Assembly (NCBI RefSeq): GCF_913774235.1
Contig: NZ_CAJYDW010000018.1
Location: 186,001-250,000, forward strand
DNA: 64,000 bases
Direction of reading: 5' to 3'
Source: an uncultured Pseudomonas sp.
GTDB lineage: Bacteria > Pseudomonadota > Gammaproteobacteria > Pseudomonadales > Pseudomonadaceae
A program made the position numbers and the translations under genes. The first letter of the stretch is position 1, and every line of letters starts with the position of its first letter. Under the pieces are notes generated by a model. That model was given only the letters and a program-made list of their open reading frames with translations. It made no database searches and was not told the origin of the DNA. This document shows, piece by piece, positions 5,962 through 62,477 of the stretch.

Positions 5962-6289
5962 TCGGAAACTTCGTTTGTAGCACTGTTCTGCCCGGTTTCA
6001 GCGTGCTTTTCCTGGCTCAGTGCTGAGTTCGAGCACTCGGAAAAACGTCTAACACTCGGCAGCAGACTGGAAGGATGGCACGGCGAGAACGCGCTAGGGC
6101 GTGAATGTTTATGCCCAGATCAGGCTGCGCCGCGAGAGGGAAACAGTCTATCAAGAATCCCAGGTTTCTGAGCGGGCGGCGACCGTCCCAGCTGCTGTGG
6201 TGAACAGCTGAAGCGACTAATGCGATGGGAGCCCCAGATTTTTAACAGCGTGACTGCGCGCCGACATTTTCGCTGGCTATCGGTTTGCC
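5962..6289. other. Intergenic stretch between dusA and the phage remnant
   Basis: About 330 bases with no convincing gene, tRNA or repeat. It holds the dusA leader and probably degraded phage-derived or island DNA. Short open frames here have no recognisable protein features. Confidence 0.5.
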
Positions 6290-6651
6290 CGGCGCACTTA
6301 CGCTGCTGATCTATTCCCTGGTGGTTGAGCGGACCGACGATGCTGATGCCGTCGTGGCTGGTCAGGTCGGTGACGCCGCCTGCGCGATCGCCGTTGGCCG
6401 GCAGCTGCTGGCTGAACAGGCCGCAGGGCACGGATGCCCTGGGCGGTCTGGCCGCTGGGGCTGAAGATGACGACCTGCTCGCCCACGGTGGGCGGATCCC
6501 ACTCGCGACTCTTGCCGGTGCGCAGGGGGAGCCAGGGCAGTTGGCCGGTCAGCAGGGCGCTGGTCGGTGAGACTGCCATGGTCGACCTCGGCGATGGTGC
6601 CGAGGCGGATCAGGTTCTCGATGGGCGGGCGAGGGCGGCGGTGTCGGTCAT
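6290..6651 (-). pseudogene. Remnant of phage baseplate assembly protein V (gpV family)
   Basis: Three short reading frames on the minus strand read in turn as one protein. From an ATG at 6651 it starts MTDTAALAR, shifts frame to IENLIRLGTIAEVDHG, shifts again to LLTGQLPWLPLRTG and EWDPPTVGEQVVIFSPSGQ, and shifts once more to GLFSQQLPANGDRAG. This order and wording match P2-like/Mu-like baseplate spike protein V. At least three frameshifts and loss of the C-terminal part make it dead. It is isolated, with no other tail genes beside it, so it marks a decayed prophage or pyocin-like island next to dusA. Confidence 0.8.
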
Positions 6652-6758
6652 GCTGCGGAGGAGCAGTTAGGATGCAGCTAGCGACATTTGTGGCGAAATT
6701 TCCTACAAATGAAGGTCTCGTGAGCAATAAGGATCTACCAGAGCGCTGACGTCAGACG

Positions 6759-8291
6759 CTACATGCTTACTTCAATACGGTTTCGACCAGCTGCTTTCGC
6801 AGCATACAGCGCTTGATCAGCTTTCTTGGTTATCGAACTGATAGGCTGTCCATAAGAGAACTCGGTAATTCCCAGGCTAATGGTGACCTTGCGTTTTATT
6901 GGGAAATCATGGCTTTCTACAGCTTGGCGTAACTTTTCGCCAAGTACCATGCAGCCTGTGATGCTGGTGTCTGGACATACTATAGAGAACTCCTCTCCGC
7001 CTGTTCTGCAAAAGACGTCCTTGGTCCTAAGGTTGTTAGATATGAGGGTGGTAAGCTCGGATAGTATTTCATCTCCCTTATCGTGGCCGAAGGTATCATT
7101 TATTGATTTGAAATGATCGACATCAAAAGCCACGATTCCGTGCTTGATGAAAATTGGATGAATGGCGTTGGTTAAGCTTTCCATGGTTTCATTGAAGTGA
7201 CGTCTGTTATAAATCCCCGTCAAAAAGTCCGTTCGGTTGATTACGTCGAGCTCATGGGTTTTCTTGAGGACGAGATACGAGGTCTTGCGGTTTTGATTGG
7301 CAAGAAAAAAGAACATCAGGGATAGAAGGCTGCTGACAATAGTGCTCAGTGCAATCAAATAGGAGCTCTTGAACTCTTCACCTTGTGACAGTAGAAAGGC
7401 GTCCGATGCCGCGATAGTCATGACGTATTGAAAGTCGTCCATAACCAGAGTTTTAGTCTGTATCAGGCCTTCCTGCTTTGCAGGTGGGATGCCGTTGGTG
7501 TAGACGGTGGACGAGACTCCGTTGCTACCGATGAAAGTCAGACCTATTGCCATTTGACCGGAGCTGGAGGCTGGGATGTCGGCCTCCATGAGCTCGCTCA
7601 GAGGTACGATGGAGGCAACAAAGGCTGCATTTTCTTCACAGTTTCTGCTGACGCAACCTATTGGGCTGATAAAGAATGCTTGGTGTTTTCCGGGTTCCAG
7701 TTCGGTGGGGGACGACACTGTGGTCGTGCCCGTTTCGCGAGCCCTTCGGAAGCTATTAAATAGACTTTCGTTTGAACTTAGGTCAAATCCCGTGCGATAT
7801 TCGGAACTTGGGGTTGTGGAAAATATAATTGTCAGTGCGGTGCTCTTGCTTTGATTTATCGGTTCTTTGTTTGGCGGGCTGGAGTAGGTTTGATAGTTGA
7901 ATGGCGAAGATTGATGGATTGCTTGTCTTTTTTTATCTATTGTTTCGGTGTCGATGAATCTGGCAAGGATGTAATTGCCATATGTCTGGCGGAAGGGCAA
8001 GGTAAAGCCATTGAACTCCGACTCCGTGGTAATGTCGGAATTTTCTATGAATCTCTTAGTGCTGGTAACTCGTGCCAGCTCGGAGCGAAACCTGGTCTGA
8101 ACTCTGCTTATACGCTCGTCAGCCAACATTCTAAAATTTGCAGAGACTGCTGTATTTGATTTTTTTTCAACTTGTAGGCACATGTAAAACAAAACGCCAA
8201 ATGTAGTCAAAAAAACTATCGCTGAGGAAATTACGGTTTGCAGTGGAGTCTTGTCCGAGCTGACTGCATTACTGTCGGGTCTGAATGGCAT
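6759..8291 (-). CDS. Membrane CHASE-domain diguanylate cyclase (GGDEF)
   Basis: The product has a transmembrane helix near residues 17-37, a periplasmic CHASE-like sensor (ADERISRVQTRFRSELARV onwards), a second transmembrane helix near 310-330 and a C-terminal GGDEF domain. The active site reads GGEEF, with DVDHFKSINDTFGH as the metal/GTP-binding stretch, so it should make c-di-GMP from GTP. The ATG at 8291 is chosen; a TTG at 8309 would add six residues. It has clearly lower GC than the flanking genes and sits beside a phage remnant, which suggests horizontal acquisition. A small gene of unknown function lies just upstream in the same direction. Confidence 0.85.
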   Translation of the reverse strand: MPFRPDSNAVSSDKTPLQTVISSAIVFLTTFGVLFYMCLQVEKKSNTAVSANFRMLADERISRVQTRFRSELARVTSTKRFIENSDITTESEFNGFTLPFRQTYGNYILARFIDTETIDKKRQAIHQSSPFNYQTYSSPPNKEPINQSKSTALTIIFSTTPSSEYRTGFDLSSNESLFNSFRRARETGTTTVSSPTELEPGKHQAFFISPIGCVSRNCEENAAFVASIVPLSELMEADIPASSSGQMAIGLTFIGSNGVSSTVYTNGIPPAKQEGLIQTKTLVMDDFQYVMTIAASDAFLLSQGEEFKSSYLIALSTIVSSLLSLMFFFLANQNRKTSYLVLKKTHELDVINRTDFLTGIYNRRHFNETMESLTNAIHPIFIKHGIVAFDVDHFKSINDTFGHDKGDEILSELTTLISNNLRTKDVFCRTGGEEFSIVCPDTSITGCMVLGEKLRQAVESHDFPIKRKVTISLGITEFSYGQPISSITKKADQALYAAKAAGRNRIEVSM

Positions 8292-8329
8292 GGTCGGGTG
8301 TCTCGACAATTGGCTAATAGGCTGAAAAC

Positions 8330-8584
8330 CTAATCGGTGATCTTAGGTAAAGGGTCAAGAGAAGAGGTGACAATGTCTGAGCATTGCTCTCTTAGGATTG
8401 CCCATTGAAGAAGTGCGGTATCCCCTGGTTGCTTGTCATTACCGGTACATCTTTCTCGCAATGCCTCAATAAGCTTTCTTCGGAATTGCGTGTCTTTGTC
8501 TGTCCAGTCAAGTAAGCTTGAGCGATTAAATTCAGAGAGCGCGGATAGTCGCTCGGAAAGCGATTTATCATCGAAAGAATCCAT
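8330..8584 (-). CDS. Small protein of unknown function upstream of the diguanylate cyclase
   Basis: An 84-residue, charged, soluble protein not recognised as any family. It has a good AGGGA ribosome site before the ATG and lies 38 bases upstream of the GGDEF gene on the same strand, so the two are likely one operon. No signal peptide, membrane segment or metal motif is visible. Its AT-richness matches the GGDEF gene, suggesting both arrived together. A role in controlling the cyclase is only a guess from position. Confidence 0.6.
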   Translation of the reverse strand: MDSFDDKSLSERLSALSEFNRSSLLDWTDKDTQFRRKLIEALRERCTGNDKQPGDTALLQWAILREQCSDIVTSSLDPLPKITD

Positions 8585-9036
8585 TGATGTCCCTAGTTTT
8601 CGATATAGCTTTTGTATCTGCTAGATGTTGCATATCGTCGCGGGAGTAAAAAAATTGACAATAAGAAAATGTGTGATGTGCGTCACATGGCTGCCAGTAT
8701 CATGACCATTTGGTCGAAAGGCTAATCTAAATAGTGATCATTTAATTTTTGGTGAATCGATTGTTCTTGGTCAATTGACAATAAAATCACAAAGCTTTCG
8801 TAAACCTTTCAACTCGGGTTGGCTCTGCGGTCTCGGGGCCCAACTGCCGTGGTTGATCTTTGAGTTGATGGTTAATAACCGTTGCTTTGGATGCTAGACA
8901 TTGTTTCGCAAATGCAATGTCATAGTCCGCATGCGCACGTAGCCGAGTTGATGCCTTAGCTATCAATTGCCTGATCGTAGAGGCGGCTGTTTCCTACTTG
9001 CGTTTGCAGACTGTATGCCTGAAACACCTATAGTCT
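8585..9036. other. AT-rich non-coding region upstream of the 8330-8584 / GGDEF pair
   Basis: About 450 bases, markedly AT-rich with many short A/T runs, and no open frame of note. It probably contains the promoter for the minus-strand pair ending at 8584. AT-rich spacers like this are typical binding ground for H-NS-like silencers such as MvaT, but no specific site can be claimed. Confidence 0.4.
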
Positions 9037-9408
9037 TTATGTCTGATCTAGTTCGTTCTGAAGATCCGAGGCGAGGAGGCTCATCGAGCTAATGTCCAAC
9101 ACCTCTCTGACGGTTGCCGAGAGGTGAGCTGATCGGCGTCGGGACCGGTCAATGACGGTAATTCGGACAGGTCCGTGGCTCGACTCCTGAATGGAGATCT
9201 CGACCTGGTAATGCCATGGAAAAAAGCCTGCGACATAAGCCTTCGTTCTGCTGCTCTGCACCGTGTTACCTGATGGGTTAAGCCTATGAGGGGGCAGGGC
9301 CCAGTCTGCGCTCGACGGGTACGCTTCGCTCAATGGTATCGGGCGCAATCCCGCTCGACGGCGATGGATGGCCTGCCAATTTTCAAGAGGGTGTTCATAG
9401 ACGCTCAC
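9037..9408 (-). CDS. Hypothetical protein
   Basis: A 123-residue open frame starting MSVYEHPLENWQAIHRRRAGL. It has no signal peptide and no recognised domain. The middle (GFFPWHYQVEISIQ, GPVRITVIDRSRRR) looks beta-rich, which argues for a real protein, but overlapping frames exist on the other strand and codon evidence is weak. It sits in the accessory stretch between the GGDEF pair and the fasciclin gene. Confidence 0.4.
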   Translation of the reverse strand: MSVYEHPLENWQAIHRRRAGLRPIPLSEAYPSSADWALPPHRLNPSGNTVQSSRTKAYVAGFFPWHYQVEISIQESSHGPVRITVIDRSRRRSAHLSATVREVLDISSMSLLASDLQNELDQT

Positions 9409-9570
9409 AGGCCGGCGTTCAGGCGTTGGCTAAGGCGTCAACGAACGGGCTGGAAGAGGTCAGAGCTACAAATTTGCTACGAAGCGCAACGGGAGGCTCT
9501 GGAGGCCGCACCAGACGGGCTTTTCGGCCTCGGTCGGCCCGATCCGTCATGGGCAGCCTCAGTACCTGGT

Positions 9571-9603
9571 GGATGCGGATACCCCTTGCAGGTATCCGCA
9601 TCC
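9571..9603. repeat. 13-bp perfect inverted repeat after the fasciclin gene
   Basis: GGATGCGGATACC (9571-9583) pairs with GGTATCCGCATCC (9591-9603) around a 7-base loop, 10 bases beyond the fasciclin stop. It lacks a T-run on the minus strand, so it is an mRNA 3'-end hairpin or a weak terminator. Confidence 0.7.
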
Positions 9604-9613
9604 CGCCTACCCG

Positions 9614-10177
9614 TTACTTCGGCATCAGCACGGTATCGACCACATGGATCACGCCGTTGGACTGCATCACATCGGCGATGGTGACGGCGGCCTTGCCGCC
9701 CTTGGCGTCGACCAGCCAGAGCTTGCCGTCGTGCAGCTTCACGGTGAGATCTTCGCCCTGGACGGTTTTCAGCTTGGTCATGCCGCCATGCATCTTGGCC
9801 TCGGCCATCAACTGCTTGGCGGTGTGGGTACCGGGCACTACGTGGTAGGTCAGGATCTTGGTCAGGTCGGCCTTGTGCTCGGGCTTGACCAGGGTATCGA
9901 CGGTACCGGCCGGTAGCTTGGCGAAGGCTTCGTTGGTCGGGGCGAAGACGGTGAAAGGGCCGCTACCGTTGAGGGTGTCGACCAGACCCGCTGCCTTGAC
10001 GGCAGCCACCAGCGTGGTGTGGTCCTTGGAATTGACCGCGTTCTCGACGATGGTCTTGGATGGGTACATGGGCGCGCCGCCGACCATGACGGTATCCGCG
10101 GCGAAGCTGAGCGGGGCGGTGGCACCTAGGATCGCGAGACTGGCTACAACGGCGATACGCTTGAGCAAGGTGTGCAT
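9614..10177 (-). CDS. Secreted fasciclin-domain protein
   Basis: A 187-residue protein with a Sec signal peptide (LLKRIAVVASLAILGATAPL, cleavage near SFA-A) and one FAS1 domain: the H1 box TLNGSGPFTVFAPTNEAFAKL, a central YHVVPG and the H2 box NGVIHVVDTVLMP. FAS1 proteins are extracellular or periplasmic adhesion-type proteins. The start is the ATG at 10177, preceded by AGGAG; an upstream in-frame extension lacks a signal. It lies directly downstream of an anti-sigma and an ECF sigma gene in the same direction, and is their probable regulatory target. Confidence 0.9.
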   Translation of the reverse strand: MHTLLKRIAVVASLAILGATAPLSFAADTVMVGGAPMYPSKTIVENAVNSKDHTTLVAAVKAAGLVDTLNGSGPFTVFAPTNEAFAKLPAGTVDTLVKPEHKADLTKILTYHVVPGTHTAKQLMAEAKMHGGMTKLKTVQGEDLTVKLHDGKLWLVDAKGGKAAVTIADVMQSNGVIHVVDTVLMPK

Positions 10178-50987: not shown

Positions 50988-51932
50988 ATGTACGAAGACA
51001 TCAAGAGCGCCTTCGAAAACCTCCAGGCGAGTATCGTCGCCTTCAATGCGTTGTGGCCAAGCCGGGTAGTGGCGGCGAGAGTCTGGCGGCTGCCGCTGCT
51101 GGCACAACAGAGAGTGCCCGATCTCATCGAGGTTGAAGCCTTCGAGGGTAGTTCGGCAGTGGAGCTGACCCAGGAAGCCCTGTTGGCCTTCCACCTTCAG
51201 CCTGGGCAGGCACCCGGAACGGTAAGCCGCCTGCCGGGCTACATCGCCCTGAGCGAACCCCTGATGGCGGAAATCCTCGCCATCAATGCGTGCAAGCACG
51301 CCTTCAGCGCCGCCATCGAGCAGACCCGGCTGGAGTTGGAGCTGGCACCGGAAGCCCGGCCGCGGATCATGCGCAAGGCACTGGGCGGGGCCTTCAATAC
51401 CAAGCAGTTGATCCGCAAGGTGCACGGTTTCCCTGATCCGGTACGCCAGCTGACCTTCACCTGGGCCGGCCATACCGCCGGAGGCGAGAGGGTCACGGTG
51501 GCGAAGGTCCGCGAGCAACTCAAGACCCTGGCCCTGGCCCGAGCGGATCGAGAACACACTGCCCTGGATCGCACGCCGGAATGGCAGGAGCATCAGGCGC
51601 TGATCCGCATGGCGGATGACGACATCCTGGTCAGGCACAAGAAGATCGCGCCTCATCCCAGGGCCATGCTCTGGTTCGGTGAGGAGAGTCGTTACGACGC
51701 CATGATCCACGCCAACCTGCCGGTGTTCGTGGTCCCCGCGCAGGACGGCATGCAGGTGGTGGATCTGCGTGACTTCGACCGTACCCAGCGCGGCGCGCTG
51801 CGTCCCGACATCAAGCCCCGTCGCGAAGTGCTGGCCACGCGACTGCTGTACCTGCCCACGGACAATCCGGAACGGCCGGCTACCCAGCGCAACAATGAGG
51901 CCACCCTGAAGCGCTCCACCTACAGCCGCTGA
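50988..51932 (+). CDS. tus: DNA replication terminus site-binding protein (Tus family)
   Basis: A 314-residue protein with the layout of Tus: N-terminal FENLQASIVAFNALWPSRVVAARVWRLP, the middle RLPGYIALSE, TFTWAGHTAGGERVTVAKVREQL and the C-terminal HKKIAPHPRAMLWFGEES. E. coli Tus is 309 residues. Tus binds asymmetric Ter DNA and blocks replication forks from one side. GGAG precedes the ATG. A TACAAT -10-like box at 50955-50960 overlaps a TTGTAGC sequence on the other strand that loosely recalls the Ter core TTGTAAC. The dif site lies about 6 kb downstream. Confidence 0.8.
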   Translation: MYEDIKSAFENLQASIVAFNALWPSRVVAARVWRLPLLAQQRVPDLIEVEAFEGSSAVELTQEALLAFHLQPGQAPGTVSRLPGYIALSEPLMAEILAINACKHAFSAAIEQTRLELELAPEARPRIMRKALGGAFNTKQLIRKVHGFPDPVRQLTFTWAGHTAGGERVTVAKVREQLKTLALARADREHTALDRTPEWQEHQALIRMADDDILVRHKKIAPHPRAMLWFGEESRYDAMIHANLPVFVVPAQDGMQVVDLRDFDRTQRGALRPDIKPRREVLATRLLYLPTDNPERPATQRNNEATLKRSTYSR

Positions 51933-51975
51933 GCGAGGCGGGGAAGGCGATGGCGTTACCGAACACAGCCAGGTC

Positions 51976-52025
51976 GTAACGAGATCCTTCGTTGCCGAGT
52001 GAAAAGGTAACGAAATCTTCGTTAC
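51976..52025. promoter_or_regulatory. Tandem inverted repeats, putative CbrB-type enhancer sites
   Basis: Two related palindromes, GTAACGAGATCCTTCGTTGC (51976-51995, imperfect) and GTAACGAAATCTTCGTTAC (52007-52025, perfect arms), are nested inside AGCCAGGT (51967) / ACCTGGCT (52034). They lie about 65-115 bases upstream of a sigma-54 promoter, where an enhancer-binding protein would bind. CbrB is the known activator of crcZ-type genes. Confidence 0.55.
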
Positions 52026-52067
52026 GCCTAGTCACCTGGCTCGGTGTCATTTTATAAAATCCTTAAT

Positions 52068-52080
52068 TTTCAATAACTTA
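52068..52080 (+). promoter_or_regulatory. IHF-like site between enhancer and sigma-54 promoter
   Basis: TTTCAATAACTTA fits WATCAANNNNTTR with one mismatch, in an A/T-rich stretch just upstream of the promoter. IHF bending at this place is usual for sigma-54 promoters. Confidence 0.45.
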
Positions 52081-52086
52081 ATAATG

Positions 52087-52103
52087 TTGGCACAGTGCCT
52101 GCT
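52087..52103 (+). promoter_or_regulatory. Sigma-54 (RpoN) promoter
   Basis: TTGGCACAGTGCCTGCT has the -24 GG (52089-52090) and -12 GC (52101-52102) exactly ten bases apart, and TGGCAC intact. The start of transcription is expected near 52113-52114. Confidence 0.75.
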
Positions 52104-52112
52104 TTATTATTG

Positions 52113-52334
52113 GCACAAGAACAACAAGATGCGCCGCTACAAGCCCACAACAAGAACAAGACGGCTGAAGCTCGCGAACCGATCATTTTGGAGCTCCTTC
52201 GAGTGGCCAAAGTAATCTGTTCACTTCCCACCTCTTGGTGGGGCGTACTGACAATCGATGACGTTGGCGTCCGACAACAAAAACAAGAGGACAACGACGT
52301 ACCTGGATGAGGGAGCCCAAGGGCTCCCTTTTTT
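52113..52334 (+). ncRNA. CrcZ/CrcY-type small RNA (Hfq/Crc decoy)
   Basis: About 220 bases from the sigma-54 start to a rho-independent terminator, with no credible protein. It carries CA-motif clusters: AACAACAAGA (52120-52129), ACAACAAGAACAAG (52147-52160) and ACAACAAAAACAAGAGGACA (52274-52293). A CCCACC/GGTGGG hairpin lies near 52227-52242. In pseudomonads CrcZ, CrcY and CrcX have this build: CbrB and sigma-54 control, several CA motifs and a terminator, and they sequester Hfq/Crc to lift carbon catabolite repression. This one is shorter than the roughly 370-410-base CrcY and CrcZ and is not next to cbrB. Confidence 0.72.
52311..52334 (+). terminator. Terminator of the small RNA
   Basis: GGGAGCCC (52311-52318) pairs with GGGCTCCC (52321-52328), followed by a run of six T. 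It ends the CA-motif RNA. Confidence 0.9.
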
Positions 52335-52558
52335 CTTGCCTGCTGGAAAGCCTCGCCGGGTTGCCAAGCTACCCCCAGTACTGTGTATCAGCAGATAGCA
52401 GATATTGGGAATGTTCGTCATCGTCCTGATGATGGTCACCAAGCTCTATCCCCATCAGCTGCTGGCCTTCTTCGGCTAGCGTCGGCAGCGGCCTTCTTTG
52501 GCATGCCGCGGCACCTTGGACTAAGGTTTCCGCAACCCAACTCACTCTGGACGCTGCC

Positions 52559-55549: not shown

Positions 55550-56491
55550 ATGAACCGAGCAAGCGCCATGACGGTTTCCGCCTTCCTCGAAGCCCGGCCT
55601 GCCGAGCTGGAGGTGATCCTGGCCGAGCCAGACCAGAGCTTTCGCTGGTACGAGCATGACTATCCCTATGCGCTCGCCCGCTGGAATCATCACCCGGAGT
55701 ACGAGATCCATCTGATCCGCCAGGGCAGCGGACGACTGTTGGCCGGTGACTATGTCGGTCCCTTCGCGGCCGGTCATGTCGCCCTGATCGGCCCGGATCT
55801 CCCACACGACTGGATCGGTGATCTGCCGCCGGACCAGGTAATCGCCGGGCGCGACGTGGTCATCCAGTTCACCGGCGACTGGCTGCGCGCGCTGAGTGCC
55901 TTGGCTCCAGAGCTGGGCACCTATCTACCGCTGCTGGAACGGGCCAGGCGTGGCCTGGAGTTCAGCGGCGAGACCGCCCGGCAGGCCGCAGAGCTGATCG
56001 AGGCCATCGGCCAGGCGCGAGGTGCGGCGCGGTTGCTTACCTTGTTCCAGCTACTCGGCCGGCTGGCCGAAGCGCCGGCTAGCGAGGTGATGGTCCTCGC
56101 CAGTGCCTGTTATGCGCCGGCACTGGACGCCCGCAGCGCCGCGCGGGTCCACCAGGCCTTCGACTATCTCCTCAGCGAGCTGACCGAGGATATCCGCTTG
56201 CCCGAGATCGCCCGGCGGGTGGGCATGAGCGAGGCCGGCTTTTCCCGCTTCTTCAAGAAGGTCACCGGCCATGGTTTCATCGAGCTGGCACGCAAGTTGC
56301 GCATCCAGCGTGCCTGTCGTTTGCTGATGCAGGCGGAACTGTCCATCGCCACCATCTGCTTCGCGGTGGGCTATTCGAATCTGTCCAACTTCAATCGGCA
56401 TTTCCGCAACGAAATGCAGCAGACGCCGAGCGAGTATCGGCGTGGATTGCTGGTAGCCAGGCGCCAGGTGGGTGAGGGCGGGCGAGGGTAG
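55550..56491 (+). CDS. AraC-family regulator (MtlR-like)
   Basis: A 313-residue AraC protein: N-terminal cupin (HHPEYEIHLIRQGSGRLLAGDYVGPFAAGHVALIGPDLPHDW) and C-terminal double helix-turn-helix (LPEIARRVGMSEAGFSRFFKKVTGHGFIELARKLRI and ICFAVGYSNLSNFNRHFRNEMQQTPSEYR). It is divergent from the polyol binding-protein gene and resembles the mannitol activator MtlR. The start may be ATG 55550 or 55568; neither has a strong ribosome site. Confidence 0.82.
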   Translation: MNRASAMTVSAFLEARPAELEVILAEPDQSFRWYEHDYPYALARWNHHPEYEIHLIRQGSGRLLAGDYVGPFAAGHVALIGPDLPHDWIGDLPPDQVIAGRDVVIQFTGDWLRALSALAPELGTYLPLLERARRGLEFSGETARQAAELIEAIGQARGAARLLTLFQLLGRLAEAPASEVMVLASACYAPALDARSAARVHQAFDYLLSELTEDIRLPEIARRVGMSEAGFSRFFKKVTGHGFIELARKLRIQRACRLLMQAELSIATICFAVGYSNLSNFNRHFRNEMQQTPSEYRRGLLVARRQVGEGGRG

Positions 56492-56527
56492 CGGTGCCTC
56501 GCCCGCCGCTGGCGTCCAGATTGCTCT

Positions 56528-57565
56528 TTACTCGGCGCTCGACGGCTTGGCCCAGAGATTGATGTCGCCTTCGACCGCATGGGTATCGATCTCGGCCAGT
56601 TCTTCAGCGGTGAAGGCCAGATTGTCCAGCGCCGCCACGTTCTCCACGATCTGCTCCGGCCGGCTGGCGCCGATCAGGGCGCTGGTGATGCGTGGGTCGC
56701 GCAGGGTCCAGGCCAAAGCCAGCTGGGCCAGGCTCTGGCCGCGGCGCTGGGCGATAGCGTTCAAGGCGCGGACCCGCTGAAGGTTTTCGGCTGACAGATG
56801 ACCCTGCTGCAGCGACTGGCCACCAGGCTGGTTGACCCGGGCATCGGCGGGCACGCCATCGAGGTACTTGTCGGTCAGCAGCCCCTGAGCCAGGGGCGTG
56901 AAGGCAATCACGCCACTACCCAGCTCTTCGGTCGCGTCCAGCAGATCCTTTTCGATCCAACGGTTGAGCAGGTTATAGGCGGGCTGATGGATCAGCAGCG
57001 GAATCTTCCAGTCGGCCAAAAGCCTGGCCATTTCGCGGGTCTTGGTGCCTGAATAGGAGCTGATACCTATATAGAGGGCCTTGCCTTGCTGTACCGCAGT
57101 GGCCAGGGCACCGGCGGTTTCTTCCAGCGGCGTATGCTCATCGAAACGGTGCGAATAGAAGATGTCGACGTAGTCCAGCCCCAGGCGCTTGAGGCTCTGG
57201 TCGAGGCTGGCCAGGACGTATTTACGCGAGCCGCCACCTTGGCCATAGGGCCCGGGCCACATGTCCCAGCCAGCCTTGCTGGAGATGATGAGCTCGTCGC
57301 GGTAGGTAGCGAAGTCTTCGCGCATTAGCCGACCGAAATTGATCTCGGCGCTGCCATAAGGCGGACCGTAGTTGTTGGCCAAGTCAAAGTGATTGATGCC
57401 CAGATCGAAGGCGGTGCGCAGCAAGGCGCGCTGCCGATCCAGTGGCGTGCTGTCGCCGAAGTTGTGCCACAGCCCAAGGGACAGCGCCGGCAGCACCAGA
57501 CCGCTGCGACCCACGCGGCGGTAAGGAATACGGTCGTAACGATCGGAAGCGGCTTGATAAGCCAT
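56528..57565 (-). CDS. Aldo/keto reductase (L-glyceraldehyde 3-phosphate reductase, YghZ-like)
   Basis: A 345-residue NADPH-dependent aldo/keto reductase of the AKR14 type. It has YRRVGRSGLVLPALSLGLWHNFGD, the catalytic Tyr in FDLANNYGPPYGSAE, Lys in IISSKAGWDMWPGPYG and His in DIFYSHRFDEHTPLEE. E. coli YghZ reduces L-glyceraldehyde 3-phosphate and methylglyoxal. The ATG at 57565 has AAGGAG upstream. Convergent with the AraC gene. Confidence 0.9.
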   Translation of the reverse strand: MAYQAASDRYDRIPYRRVGRSGLVLPALSLGLWHNFGDSTPLDRQRALLRTAFDLGINHFDLANNYGPPYGSAEINFGRLMREDFATYRDELIISSKAGWDMWPGPYGQGGGSRKYVLASLDQSLKRLGLDYVDIFYSHRFDEHTPLEETAGALATAVQQGKALYIGISSYSGTKTREMARLLADWKIPLLIHQPAYNLLNRWIEKDLLDATEELGSGVIAFTPLAQGLLTDKYLDGVPADARVNQPGGQSLQQGHLSAENLQRVRALNAIAQRRGQSLAQLALAWTLRDPRITSALIGASRPEQIVENVAALDNLAFTAEELAEIDTHAVEGDINLWAKPSSAE

Positions 57566-57888
57566 GCAAAGCTCCTTTGGAAGAAATGGGAATCGGCGGG
57601 ACATGGAATCGGAAAGCTCCGCCCACCAAGGTATAGATGGTGACGTGGCGAAGGTGCCATCGGATTAGAGCTGCCGGTAACCACTTGTTCAAACCGGCGC
57701 GGGCATACGCCTGGAGTTCCAGCTAACGAAGAGCACAGGCGGAACGAGCACTCGGATTCTGCAGTGCCGGTGCATGAGCGTCTGTGACTGGCATCGCTTG
57801 GCGACGACCCTGGTAGGCTGGGCAACGAAGGAAGGTGGAGGTTCGAGCGTGAAAAGCGCGAGGCCCAGGGCCATCCCCCATAACCATA
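57566..57888. other. Intergenic region leading to dif
   Basis: About 320 bases with the promoter of the aldo/keto reductase and no convincing gene; overlapping short frames on the minus strand have no recognisable features. Confidence 0.4.
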
Positions 57889-57916
57889 ACTTCGCATAAT
57901 GTATATTATGTTAAAT
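57889..57916 (+). other. dif: Chromosome dimer resolution site dif (XerCD)
   Basis: A 28-base site: XerC arm ACTTCGCATAA (57889-57899), central TGTATA (57900-57905) and XerD arm TTATGTTAAAT (57906-57916). The centre, XerD arm and inner XerC arm (CGCATAA) match the E. coli dif exactly. XerCD with FtsK resolve chromosome dimers here, so the site places the window at the replication terminus. Confidence 0.93.
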
Positions 57917-58306
57917 TACGTATTACGCTGGCTTCTCTTCTGAGTCTTTTGCAGCGCTGATTCGATCATTCCGTGTTTGGCCTCCACTCTCTTTACCGCC
58001 ATGTCCTTCGTGTTTATGGCATGAGGTGACTGTCGGTGAGCGGATTCAGTGCCATTCTCATCCGGCTAGCACAAGCCCCTGCATGGGATGGTCTACCAAC
58101 GCCATTATCAAGTTAGTTCTAGCTAAGTAGCGCACCTTCGTGCGATCCATGTGTTGCCTAAATTTCTTACCCATGACTGTCGCCACGCTTTCACCGGCCG
58201 TATTCTCGCTCGCCTAAATCGAGCAGCGTGGGCATGACCTCAAGCGCGCAACGGACGAGCTGTGACGAGTCTGCGGAAGGTGAACTCAAAATAAAAATAG
58301 ATTAGA

Positions 58307-58348
58307 CTTTTGCCGATTCAGCTTGAAACCAAACTGAATCGGCAAAAG
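58307..58348. repeat. 15-bp perfect inverted repeat upstream of the NERD-helicase gene
   Basis: CTTTTGCCGATTCAG (58307-58321) pairs with CTGAATCGGCAAAAG (58334-58348) around a 12-base loop, followed by CTTTTG. It is terminator-like for either strand. The remaining 57917-58453 region shows no gene. Confidence 0.8.
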
Positions 58349-58453
58349 CTTTTGTTAATGAGGTGGCCCCATGCTTCGATAGAATCAGATAGAACCCTTA
58401 GAATAAATCTCTCTTATTTAGCCTGAGCGATGGGCAGGTTTTGGGTATTGAAA

Positions 58454-60955
58454 ATGGCAAAGATGATACCTAGTCAAGGTGCTATTGACACAAACAGCTT
58501 TGGTGAACGTACAGTCTTTTCCTTGCTGAGAGATGGCTTACCTGAAGAGTATACGGTCATTCATAGCCTCCCATGGCTCTGTTCTGCAATTAAAAAAATT
58601 GACTCCAGTTTCGCCCCCACTGGAGAAATCGACTTTCTTATCATTCATGAAAGCCTCGGCGTACTTGCTCTCGAAATTAAAAGTGGCGCCTACCGTGTTG
58701 AGGGATCAATTTTTGTACATGTGCGATCTCAAAGAGTATCCAATCCGGTTATGCAGACCCGGAAAAACTCTCACGGCCTAGCGAGATGGCTCGGCTGTGA
58801 TGAGAATTTACGGATAAGAATAGGATACGGGTTCGTTTTCCCGGACAGTAGTTTTGGAGAAAGCGACTTAGGTCCAGCTTTAACTGACCGCAGTACACCA
58901 CTGCCTTCCAAGATCTTTGTACACCATGATGAGATGGGCGCCCTATCATCCAGAGTTGTCGACATCATGAAATACTGGAAGGCTGCGCTTGGCAATCCTC
59001 CCCTAGGGAGGGAGAAAGCAAATGCTATCCTTTCAGCATTGTGCCCACAGTACGATGGAGCCTTGACATGGGGAGCAAGAATATTATTCGATAATCACAT
59101 GTGGTTACGACTAACTAAAGAGCAAGCCTCGGCTGTTGAAAGAGCTCTTAACAAGAAAAAAACGGTAATAACAGGCTGGCCGGGCACAGGAAAAACAATC
59201 ATTGGAATAGAGGTCGCTAGAAGATTTTCAAGCGAAGGAAAAAACGTCCTATTTCTTACATTTAATTCTTTGCTGGCAGAAAATATCAAGATTCATCTAA
59301 AAGATGCGGGAAAATGTACGGTATCGACCTGGCACACATTCTGCCATCAAGCAAAGAAGAAGCTTGGTGTAGCCGCAGATGAAAAAATAGAGCCACAGGA
59401 GTGGTTTCAAAATAAATGCTGTGAAGACCTTGCCCAAGCTATAAAAAAAGGTCTTTTAAAAGCATACGATGCAATAGTAGTCGATGAGGCGCAAGCTTTT
59501 AACATTTCTTGGCATAAAACTCTACTTGACTGGCTGGGCGATAAGCCCGCTGTTTTTTTTGCTGACGAATCGCAAGTATTTTCGTTTGAAAAAAACACAA
59601 CAGAACTATTAGGATTGTGCCATGAAGTAGGCACCGATTCACCTTACTACTTGACTTCGGTCATTAGAATGCCAAGACAGGTGACAAATCGGCTAATTGA
59701 AGCCAAGGACTGCGCCTACCAACTACACATTCCGCGACCCGAAGAGGACGACACTCTAAGAGAGATACTGACTTACGACTGGGCAAGCGATATCACTCTG
59801 CAGATTGATGAGTTGTGCTCAAGAGGCATGACAACAGAAGATATATTGATTCTCACTCGGCTTGAGCCGTCCGATCATCTTAAAAATCTTATTAGCACCT
59901 TAGGAGTAAAGCATGCGCTGGTCAGCCGCTATAGAGGCTTAGAATCCCCTGTGGTGATCATACTTGGCTGTGATGGAATGAGCGACCCCGAGCTGTTTTG
60001 CGCCTATTCCAGGGCAACCACTCTCTGCATAGCAATCTATATGATCGAAACCCTCACGCGGAAGATTGAGGGTGCATTTCAAAAAATCCTTGCCAAGGAC
60101 GACGCTAATGCGCAAGAAATAAGTCGAGCATACAACAACTCCCTCACCACAAATATTATACTTCGCAAGAATGACGTGACAAGATACGACCTACATACAG
60201 TCGACCTATACTGGTCGAAATCTTGGGCAAGTTGGCTTGTACATACACCTTCAGAGGGTAGCTCGCACGAATTATGGGCCGATTATTTAGTGCAGAATTG
60301 GCCATGGAAAGTGTATCTATGGAGTGGTGATGCTCGCCGAAAAATTAGCCTAATACTAAAAGATGATGATAAAGGGGAGCCATATGTAAGCAGAATGCTC
60401 TACAGTATTTTTTATTGTGATGATTGCAAAGAATGCACGCCGCACCATATTCACTCAGAGGAATGCAGCTTTTGCAAGAGCGGCAATTGTCTCGCTCGCT
60501 CACAGAGTTTTACTTTAGAAAGCAATGTGGTTTCTACCGTATCCATGTTGGATCAACTAGTTTATAAAGCTCTCGGCCCTCAAGTATCTCTCGATAGAGT
60601 CGAGCTACAGGTACTGCCTCTCCCCTTGGCCGCAATGGGGGCCAGGCTGTACTCCGAGCAACGGGTAACGCAGTTCAATTTAGATTTATTAGCCTTGCCA
60701 CCTGGCAAGTATTTTTACCGTTCTGCGCTTGCATTTGTCCAATCAAGAGCCCTACTACTAAAGCCGGGAAAGACCATTTCACATAGAAAGCTTGCAGAAG
60801 AGCTATATAGCCGCTACGAAGACTTAAAGCTTATAGGTGGAGCCTCATGGCAAACAAAAATAGCGCAAGCTCTTTCTACGTCATATGGGAAGGGACTTAT
60901 AGCAAAAATTGATAAGGGGATTTATGGTCCTCCAAAAGTTCCACATGACGGGTAA
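58454..60955 (+). CDS. NERD-nuclease / superfamily 1 helicase fusion, possible defence protein
   Basis: An 833-residue protein. The N-terminal NERD domain, a restriction-like nuclease fold, has GEIDFLI (Asp60) and LALEIKSG (Glu74, Lys76). A UvrD/RecD-like helicase follows: Walker A GWPGTGKT (241-248), Walker B VVDEAQ (342-347), and motif VI in the YSRAT stretch. A Cys/His cluster (CDDCKECTPHHIHSEECSFC) lies in the C-terminal third. The gene is AT-rich against its neighbours and sits just after dif, so it was probably acquired. Start 58454 (MAKMIPSQ) looks family-like; ATG 58430 is the alternative. DNA damage repair or anti-phage action is inferred, not shown. Confidence 0.8.
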   Translation: MAKMIPSQGAIDTNSFGERTVFSLLRDGLPEEYTVIHSLPWLCSAIKKIDSSFAPTGEIDFLIIHESLGVLALEIKSGAYRVEGSIFVHVRSQRVSNPVMQTRKNSHGLARWLGCDENLRIRIGYGFVFPDSSFGESDLGPALTDRSTPLPSKIFVHHDEMGALSSRVVDIMKYWKAALGNPPLGREKANAILSALCPQYDGALTWGARILFDNHMWLRLTKEQASAVERALNKKKTVITGWPGTGKTIIGIEVARRFSSEGKNVLFLTFNSLLAENIKIHLKDAGKCTVSTWHTFCHQAKKKLGVAADEKIEPQEWFQNKCCEDLAQAIKKGLLKAYDAIVVDEAQAFNISWHKTLLDWLGDKPAVFFADESQVFSFEKNTTELLGLCHEVGTDSPYYLTSVIRMPRQVTNRLIEAKDCAYQLHIPRPEEDDTLREILTYDWASDITLQIDELCSRGMTTEDILILTRLEPSDHLKNLISTLGVKHALVSRYRGLESPVVIILGCDGMSDPELFCAYSRATTLCIAIYMIETLTRKIEGAFQKILAKDDANAQEISRAYNNSLTTNIILRKNDVTRYDLHTVDLYWSKSWASWLVHTPSEGSSHELWADYLVQNWPWKVYLWSGDARRKISLILKDDDKGEPYVSRMLYSIFYCDDCKECTPHHIHSEECSFCKSGNCLARSQSFTLESNVVSTVSMLDQLVYKALGPQVSLDRVELQVLPLPLAAMGARLYSEQRVTQFNLDLLALPPGKYFYRSALAFVQSRALLLKPGKTISHRKLAEELYSRYEDLKLIGGASWQTKIAQALSTSYGKGLIAKIDKGIYGPPKVPHDG

Positions 60956-60996
60956 TAAGTACTACTAAAGCCCTATCTCTTTTTACGTAGGGCCAT

Positions 60997-61593
60997 TCAG
61001 CGCGCCAAACCGGCCAATACGGCAGCGACATTGCCCTCAGCCTGCGCAGCGGTTTCCGCGTACAGGCTCCTGCCATGGGCGTCGATGGCCACCACGGCGG
61101 GACCGAGCCCGTGCACCCGGATCTTCGATAGGCGGTAATGGGTCAGCATCTCGGACCAGCCAACCTGGATTACGGCTTCGATGGCGCGCGACAGCAAGGT
61201 GCAGCCACCGCCTAGAAATGACAGGTAGACGCAGCCCACGCGTTGCATGGCGCGTACGCTGTGTTCGTCCAGGCCGCCTTTGCCGCCCACCAGGCGTAGG
61301 CCGAAACCCTCGATGAGACGGGGCATATAGGGATTGAAGCGGGTGCTGGTGGTGGGATTGATGTAGAGCATTTCGAAGGCACCGCCCTCCCCTTGGCTGT
61401 AACCGCCGAGATGGAAGAAGGCCTGGCCGTGTAGATCCAAAGGCGGTGGCGTACCGCTTTCCAGGCACTCGAGCAGCCGCTGGTGGGTCGGCAGCCCGGC
61501 GGTGATGATCACTTCGCCGTCGACCGTTACCAGATCGCCAGCCTGGAGCGCGCGAACCTGGGCTTCATCGAAGGGCGCTGTCAGTCGTTTCAT
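60997..61593 (-). CDS. Class I fumarase / L-tartrate dehydratase beta subunit
   Basis: A 198-residue protein of the Fumerase_C family. It has the family stretches LQAGDLVTVDGEVIITAG and PYMPRLIEGFGLRLVGGKGG, and VYLSFLGGGCTLLSRAIEAV. It pairs with the [4Fe-4S] alpha subunit coded 11 bases upstream to dehydrate a hydroxy diacid. Separate alpha and beta chains are found in TtdAB and in two-subunit fumarases; the true substrate cannot be told from sequence. Confidence 0.85.
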   Translation of the reverse strand: MKRLTAPFDEAQVRALQAGDLVTVDGEVIITAGLPTHQRLLECLESGTPPPLDLHGQAFFHLGGYSQGEGGAFEMLYINPTTSTRFNPYMPRLIEGFGLRLVGGKGGLDEHSVRAMQRVGCVYLSFLGGGCTLLSRAIEAVIQVGWSEMLTHYRLSKIRVHGLGPAVVAIDAHGRSLYAETAAQAEGNVAAVLAGLAR

Positions 61594-61604
61594 GCTCGTC
61601 GTTC

Positions 61605-62477
61605 TCACTCGAAATAGTCGACACGGCCATCCGGATGAATCCGTGCGGAGCGCCGTCGGTTGATCCAGCAGTTGAAGCAGACAGCGACCGGGGTGAAGCC
61701 GTGACCGGCGGCGTAGTCGATGTGCACCGCCATGGTGGTGGCGTCGCCACCGGTCCCCATGGGGCCGAACCCCGTGGCATTGATCGCCTTGAACAGCCGC
61801 CCTTCCATCTCGGCCAGGATCGGCTCGGGATTCTGGCTGCCGATGGGTCTGAGGATGCCCTGCTTGGCGAGCTTGGTCGCGTAGTCGAAGGTGCCGCCGA
61901 TGCCCACCCCTACCACCACTGGTGGGCAATGCTGGGGGCCGGCCTTGAGCACCACGTCCATCACGTAGCGTTCGATGACGTCCAGCGTGGGAAAGGTGAA
62001 GATTTCCAGCGCCGCCCAGCGGCCCGAACCGAGCGCCTTGGGTGAACAGGTGATCTCGATGTAATCGGCATCGTCGAGCAATTCGAACGTGGTGATCGGC
62101 ATGTCCTTGCCGGCATAGCCCCGCTCCAGCGTCAGCGGATGGGTGACGTGCTGCAGCATCGGTGGCTGGATGCTGGCGACCAAATCGGCGAAGCCATCGA
62201 CGATGGCCTGCTTGACCGGACCATCGAAGTTGACGCGGGTGCCGACCTTCACGAAGTACACCGGCACCCCCGAATCCGAGCAGACGAAGTGGTTTTCCTC
62301 TTCGGCGGCGCGAGCACTGGCGATCATCACGCCGAGGGTTTCCCTGGCGGTAGCATTGCGCTCCACGGCACTGGCACTCGCCAACGCCGCCTTGGTGTCT
62401 TCGGGAATCTTCTTGAGCGAGCGCTCGTACAGTTCGGCTGTCACCTGGCGCAACAGCGTGGAAGAAATCGTACCCAT
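61605..62477 (-). CDS. Class I fumarase / L-tartrate dehydratase alpha subunit
   Basis: A 290-residue Fumerase-family subunit with the [4Fe-4S] cysteine in HFVCSDSGVPVYF (Cys66), a second candidate in EITCSPKALGSGR, and a third near AVCFNCW. VVVGVGIGGTFDYATKLAKQGILRPIG is family-typical. The ATG at 62477 follows the pcaF stop by two bases, so they are one operon. Its neighbours, pcaF and an MFS transporter, suggest a dicarboxylate or tartrate route. Confidence 0.87.
   Translation of the reverse strand: MGTISSTLLRQVTAELYERSLKKIPEDTKAALASASAVERNATARETLGVMIASARAAEEENHFVCSDSGVPVYFVKVGTRVNFDGPVKQAIVDGFADLVASIQPPMLQHVTHPLTLERGYAGKDMPITTFELLDDADYIEITCSPKALGSGRWAALEIFTFPTLDVIERYVMDVVLKAGPQHCPPVVVGVGIGGTFDYATKLAKQGILRPIGSQNPEPILAEMEGRLFKAINATGFGPMGTGGDATTMAVHIDYAAGHGFTPVAVCFNCWINRRRSARIHPDGRVDYFE

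Follow-up and report, generated by a model that had tools for sequence, protein, structure and literature searches.

Does this stretch of a Pseudomonas genome encode a second, shorter member of the family of CrcZ, the small RNA by which Pseudomonas relieves the repression of second-choice carbon sources? A preliminary description of the window, by which we mean the entire 64,000 nucleotides of DNA analysed, had proposed such an RNA on the basis of a series of sequence elements, all of which are present. At curated cut-offs, the Rfam models reported nothing in the window. With the cut-off lifted, the CrcZ search that the preliminary description had called for returned an end-to-end match to RF01675 (positions 52115-52363, model positions 1-398, 63.6 bits, E = 5.9e-16), which overruns the terminator at its 3' end and lies below the gathering score of 95; the next-best Rfam family in the window reached E = 0.88. 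Positions 52112-52335 (+) are thereby identified, by the covariance model, as a diverged CrcZ-family RNA gene with a predicted product of ~224 nt. Annotation at the cut-off misses this RNA because its score falls below the curated 95, a value that we treat as an annotation threshold hard for a shortened copy to reach, and not as defining the biology. As set out below, we regard it as very probable that the locus is a second, shortened CrcZ-family gene, driven by CbrB and sigma-54, whose transcript would serve as a smaller Hfq/Crc decoy.

The search for other copies, which had also been suggested, located a normal crcZ in the same genome, on another contig (271.7 bits), directly downstream of cbrB; the short RNA, unlike CrcZ proper, is not found in this position. 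Upstream of the full-length gene lie a histidine kinase and then a sigma-54-type response regulator, and downstream of it a pcnB-like gene. We presume the names cbrA, cbrB and pcnB from the known gene order; NCBIfam gave only general models, below their cut-offs. The response regulator and the pcnB-like gene flank crcZ likewise in 7 of the 19 other loci checked. In addition, the genome encodes Hfq (first solved-structure match 1u1s, which we take to be Hfq from P. aeruginosa), Crc (first structure matches 4jg3 and 4f1r, Catabolite repression control protein) and RpoN. The covariance match, the core helix, the common promoter layout and the second, normal crcZ at cbrB together support the earlier suggestion that the short locus is a paralogue of CrcZ.

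For comparison, 13 genomes of the genus (the Pseudomonas oryzihabitans group) were sampled, counting matches at E <= 0.01. All 13 hold exactly two CrcZ-family matches: a crcZ scoring 264.9-293.6 and a second copy, which is short in 12 genomes (56.5-69.1) and full length in G001 (245.8). Ten of the 12 short loci, the window included, have a Tus-family gene directly upstream (hereafter Tus-linked), whereas tus was not found in the fetched 6.5 kb at the short loci of G004 and G012, nor at the long second copy of G001. The earlier statement that the RNA follows tus is thus correct here and in nine relatives, but does not extend to G004 and G012. Downstream of the Tus-family stop codon (51932-52340), four GTTAC/GTAAC sites, an A+T-rich spacer, TGGCACAGTGCCTGCT, the RNA and the terminator follow one another, and the features are as follows.

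50988..51932, +: Tus/Ter-family gene, context, outside the RNA gene (PF05472, 57.9 bits against a cut-off of 22)
51954..51959, +: CbrB-type forward subsite CGTTAC, -158 (at -157/-158 in 10/10 Tus-linked loci, window included)
51976..51981, +: CbrB-type reverse subsite GTAACG, -136 (at -135/-136 in 10/10 Tus-linked loci)
52007..52012, +: CbrB-type reverse subsite GTAACG, -105 (at -104/-105 in 12/12 short loci and 13/13 genus crcZ)
52020..52025, +: fourth GTTAC site (in 0/11 other short loci)
52068..52080, +: IHF-like site, one mismatch, weak evidence (by eye; the best match sits at -44 in 8/11 other short loci)
52088..52103, +: sigma-54 -24/-12 promoter box TGGCACAGTGCCTGCT (GG-N10-GC in 12/12 short loci)
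52112..52335, +: predicted short CrcZ-family RNA (Rfam CrcZ match, conservation profile, fold z -4.03)
52117..52128, +: A-rich (ARN)4 repeat 1 (sequence)
52149..52160, +: A-rich (ARN)4 repeat 2, predicted hairpin loop (sequence, fold)
52174..52191, +: core helix, 5' strand (helix comparison across the family)
52207..52224, +: core helix, 3' strand (loop of 15 nt, against 114 in the CrcZ of the same genome)
52276..52290, +: A-rich (ARN)5 repeat 3, predicted hairpin loop (sequence, fold)
52310..52334, +: intrinsic terminator, a strong hairpin then a T run (sequence and fold)

The letters of the CbrB-type sites were taken from PMC6296734, excerpts of which describe the CbrB subsites TGTTAC and GTAACA, an F1-R1-R2 layout and a dependence on IHF. 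GTTAC/GTAAC sites lie at 51954, 51976, 52007 and 52020. Such a cluster, four sites within 180 nt downstream of the tus stop, was matched by 1 of 5000 dinucleotide shuffles and by no other 180-nt stretch in the 64 kb (scan, step 5). Tandem inverted repeats had been described as running from 51967; the sites exist, but the first of them lies before that start, at 51954. Three of the four are found at the same positions in the nine other Tus-linked loci. Tandem inverted repeats do not, however, represent the conserved layout, because G004 and G012 are arranged otherwise (GTAACA at -147, TGTTAC at -137, GTAACG at -104) and the 52020 site recurs in none of the 11 other short loci. Counting against the proposed reading, the subsites are spaced 22 and 31 nt apart here, compared with 10 and 22 nt at the crcZ of the same genome, and differ in part from the 20-25 bp given for P. 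putida in an excerpted report. The forward subsite occupies -157/-158 in the Tus-linked short loci, -137 in the other two (G004 and G012) and -136/-137 upstream of crcZ, and GTAACG at -104/-105 together with GG-N10-GC is present in all 25 genus copies (12 short, 13 crcZ).

In line with the preliminary description, a GG-N10-GC box is found at 52088, where TGGCACAGTGCCTGCT has one mismatch to TGGCAC-N5-TTGCW, the sigma-54 consensus used for scoring. Taken alone this box proves little, because the window holds six equally good sites with one mismatch, and none better. The IHF-like site is also present as described, with its one mismatch, but by itself it is no better than chance: a motif with one mismatch or none turned up in 409 of 2000 simple shuffles, and an equal match lies at 52053. 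Candidate CbrB-type sites and a sigma-54 box are the promoter layout of the CrcZ family, kept in kind.

Within the RNA, the three motif clusters noted earlier correspond to three repeats of at least four ARN units, (ARN)≥4, a number equalled by one shuffle in 5000; elsewhere in the window, no stretch of 224 nt on either strand holds as many (step 10). Three such repeats are present in 11 of the 12 short loci (two in G008) and five in all 13 genus crcZ. The single-strand fold is stable (z -4.03), with 0 of 200 shuffles as good, and the strong terminator is as clear as had been claimed. When cut from promoter to terminator by one rule, the RNA measures 229 nt against 384 nt for the CrcZ of the same genome, or 60%, the proportion first estimated; by the same rule the 12 short RNAs range from 226 to 234 nt and the 13 genus crcZ RNAs from 379 to 385 nt. 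The short RNA is without ~100 nt between the strands of the core helix, and without two of the A-rich repeats.

The core helix (18 + 18 nt) closes a loop of 14-15 nt in the short RNAs and of 93-129 nt in 31 of 32 other sequences, the exception being G016b with 27 nt. The helix is supported by two-sided pair changes across 44 family sequences, in which one pair occurs as A-U, U-A or C-G and others as G-C and A-U. Against it stand mismatches across the same 44 sequences, at the third pair in 25, at the seventh in nearly all and at the eleventh in 27. Among the 12 short RNAs 99.4% of helix cells are paired, compared with 29.8-57.1% when the partner is slid; within this set both partners change in only one pair, and 154 of 500 shuffles show as many such changes. 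As 12 of the 14 helix pairs never vary among the 12 short RNAs, and the helix is retained in an RNA with two A-rich repeats fewer, one might suppose that this CrcZ-family RNA has drifted to another job, in which the core helix rather than the Hfq-type repeats does the work, the RNA binding another protein or base-pairing to specific mRNAs. The retention of three A-rich repeats in 11 of the 12 short loci, and of a CbrB-type promoter in kind, argues against such a drift, which we consider unlikely.

Conservation marks out the same unit. In 20-nt bins across the 10 Tus-linked loci, mean pairwise identity is 0.74-0.96 in the transcript and 0.09-0.50 after the terminator, while upstream the bin that holds the GTAAC site at -105 reaches 0.87 and the spacer 0.37-0.64; these sharp edges coincide with the predicted limits of the gene. 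All 12 short loci retain the promoter box, the subsite at -105, the core helix and a terminator hairpin. A decaying, functionless duplicate of crcZ would also be expected to be shorter than CrcZ, to score lower with the model and to have fewer repeats, as this RNA does, but the kept elements, the sharp edges at the transcript and the occurrence of a short copy in 12 of 13 genus genomes make decay very improbable.

A short-core pattern that finds 12 of the 13 genus genomes matched 1 of 385 other Pseudomonadaceae (G195), and its reversed control matched no listed genome. The G195 match lies opposite an apparent protein-frame start and was taken as chance. Outside this genus and genus g5, matches of a second pattern in G283, G369, G402, G331 and G021 gave no Rfam match at E up to 1, those in G021 and G331 being taken for coding sequence on reading; together with G195 they were dropped as chance because the reversed control of this second pattern matched 29 genomes, more than five. 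Short copies elsewhere may be missed, because the patterns demand exact letters, and the second picked up just 4 of the 12 short copies in the window's own genus. Separately, among the matches listed, four CrcZ-family matches per genome were seen in G020, G079 and G103 (genus g9) and in G242 (genus g14).

As for the surroundings, the order of tus then short core is found in 7/7 named records (four Pseudomonas oryzihabitans, P. rhizoryzae RY24 and two Pseudomonas sp.), which are the same data as seven of the genus genomes and thus not further evidence. The Tus/Ter-family gene (50988-51932) scores 35.1 with the NCBIfam equivalog model, whose cut-off is 323. Neither a tRNA nor a tmRNA gene was detected in the window, and plasmid records gave no match to 51900-52500. 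Calculated over 4 kb at a time, G+C is ~0.50-0.54 at ~6000-10000 and 56000-62000, compared with 0.58-0.67 elsewhere, and these may be islands. A leader RNA of the downstream DUF1349 gene was rejected because a terminator is present, the distance to the gene varies and the gene was not found in the DNA fetched for G010, which extends ~3 kb downstream. It is most improbable of all that the adjacent Tus-family protein binds the GTAAC repeats, with the RNA as a by-product of the region that controls its gene: the RNA gene does directly follow a Tus-family gene in 10 of the 12 short loci, and the E. coli Ter core includes GTAAC, but GTAAC sites of the same kind precede both the crcZ behind cbrB and the short RNA in G004 and G012, two loci with no tus in the fetched 6.5 kb, and the window contains no E. 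coli-type Ter core (up to 2 mismatches).

If the locus is a shortened CrcZ-family gene, from which CrcZ might it derive? The core letters GATCATTTT and AAAGTAAT (AAAATAAT once) are common to 12 short and 14 long copies of the genus, and occur in 0/18 sequences from other genera in the helix comparison. Because short and long copies have these letters in common, we prefer, as a judgement, an origin from the genus's own CrcZ. Trees disagree on the parent of the short RNAs, and the result depends on the rows included. A 44-row tree, from which L084 was omitted as a duplicate, does not keep the 12 short RNAs together and places the 10 Tus-linked RNAs next to G016 (genus g5; 90/89); it carries a long-branch warning. 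In a 37-row tree (without L084, L065, L066, L067, L072, L073, L074 and L075), the 12 come together in a single clade (92/85), which in turn groups with the long copies from the same genus (93/88), neither being starred. A 54-row tree (without L084, L065, L066, L067, L072 and L073, with L074, L075 and 15 further g5 rows, and lacking the transcripts of G150b, G177a and G177b, which could not be cut out) again places the 10 Tus-linked RNAs beside g5 sequences (85/54); here the 12 short RNAs are not recovered as one clade, yet such a clade is not rejected (p-AU 0.32), nor is a single origin of all 18 short RNAs (p-AU 0.249).

Genus g5 contains a second short form. Two CrcZ-family matches are present in 10 of its 37 genomes, and in 7 of the 37 (G016, G140, G154, G193, G204, G216 and G150; L074, L085-L090) the second copy is short, with a core loop of 26-27 nt where the measured full-length g5 copies have 115-129 nt; in G173 and G169 the second copy is full length, with a loop of 118 and 119 nt, respectively. 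In the 54-row tree, the six of these seven whose transcript could be cut out form a clade (100/99) nested among full-length g5 copies, the 15-row group that encloses it being supported at 98/82. Of these six, the five measured for repeats each have five (ARN)≥4 repeats, compared with six in full-length g5. Because the g5 short copies nest among full-length g5 copies and keep five repeats, the two genera probably lost the middle of CrcZ independently. In G177, two CrcZ matches (L091, L102) at opposite ends of a single contig resemble halves of one gene; by eye, the flanking ends look like those of an insertion sequence, which would have interrupted the central domain.

It is possible, though we put this forward tentatively, that CrcZ is modular: in two Pseudomonadaceae genera, probably independently, a duplicate would have shed the same ~100-nt central domain and kept the core helix and the outer repeats, so that the short RNA would be a separately tuned decoy and the helix an essential part with a role beyond holding Hfq. 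Were this true, that role could be stability or the placing of Hfq and Crc.

Decoy action is the most likely function predicted for the short RNA. On poor carbon sources CbrB would act at the GTTAC/GTAAC subsites and, with the help of IHF, activate sigma-54 RNA polymerase at 52088, yielding an RNA of ~224 nt that would end at the terminator (52310-52334). Hfq, together with Crc, would be captured at its distal face by the three (ARN)n repeats of this RNA, of which two lie in predicted hairpin loops, and the repression of catabolic mRNAs would thereby be relieved, in addition to the relief given by the genome's full-length CrcZ. Three repeats can suffice, because the first 151 nt of P. aeruginosa CrcZ, with three A-rich stretches, gave three Hfq-shifted bands according to an excerpt of PMC4063720. 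The gene itself most likely goes back to a duplication of CrcZ, the copy having lost the domain enclosed by the core-helix strands, along with two A-rich repeats.

This would extend the CrcZ/CrcY/CrcX decoys to a much shorter form overlooked by cut-off annotation. The short and long RNAs amount to a natural deletion experiment on the parts that evolution keeps and, with the core helix and three repeats surviving and the central domain gone, the reason for the length of CrcZ becomes directly testable. No paper came up when CrcZ was searched together with oryzihabitans or psychrotolerans, or as 'CrcZ-like', the subscription literature lying outside these searches, so that such an RNA may already have been mentioned in print. 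Additional copies of CrcZ were already known, and the surprise is moderate: the literature searched made no mention of one at 60% of the length, scoring under the annotation cut-off and probably paralleled in another genus.

Among known systems, the RsmY/RsmZ and CsrB decoys involve a different protein and motif from CrcZ. Their likeness to the short RNA is one of working principle, a many-site RNA that soaks up a translational repressor (excerpts of PMC4063720), and not a claimed kinship of sequence. CrcY and CrcX, like the short RNA, are additional CrcZ-family RNAs beside CrcZ, and are named in P. putida, A. vinelandii and P. syringae in the excerpted part of PMC8871633; six A-rich motifs are given for A. 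vinelandii CrcZ/Y in that of PMC6292655. Among the extra copies fetched from other genera that lie away from cbrB, which may include the published crcY/crcX, 11 are matched over 338-405 nt and have core loops of 96-120 nt, the exceptions being the g5 short copies. In the 37-row and 54-row trees the short RNAs stand apart from the extra g14 copies, and tus was found within the fetched DNA at 0 of the 19 other loci checked. From CrcZ itself the short RNA differs in length (~224 nt, against 379-385 in genus crcZ and the 407 nt reported for P. aeruginosa), in its repeats (three, against five in genus CrcZ and six (A-R-N)n repeats in P. aeruginosa, where Hfq binds the first 151 nt; both P. aeruginosa values from excerpts of PMC4063720), in its core loop of 14-15 nt rather than 93-129, in not lying beside cbrB and in scoring below the gathering threshold. 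With CrcZ (RF01675) it has in common the CbrB-type subsites, the sigma-54 box, the A-rich repeats, the core helix and the 3' hairpin terminator, and by sequence and structure it belongs to the same family.
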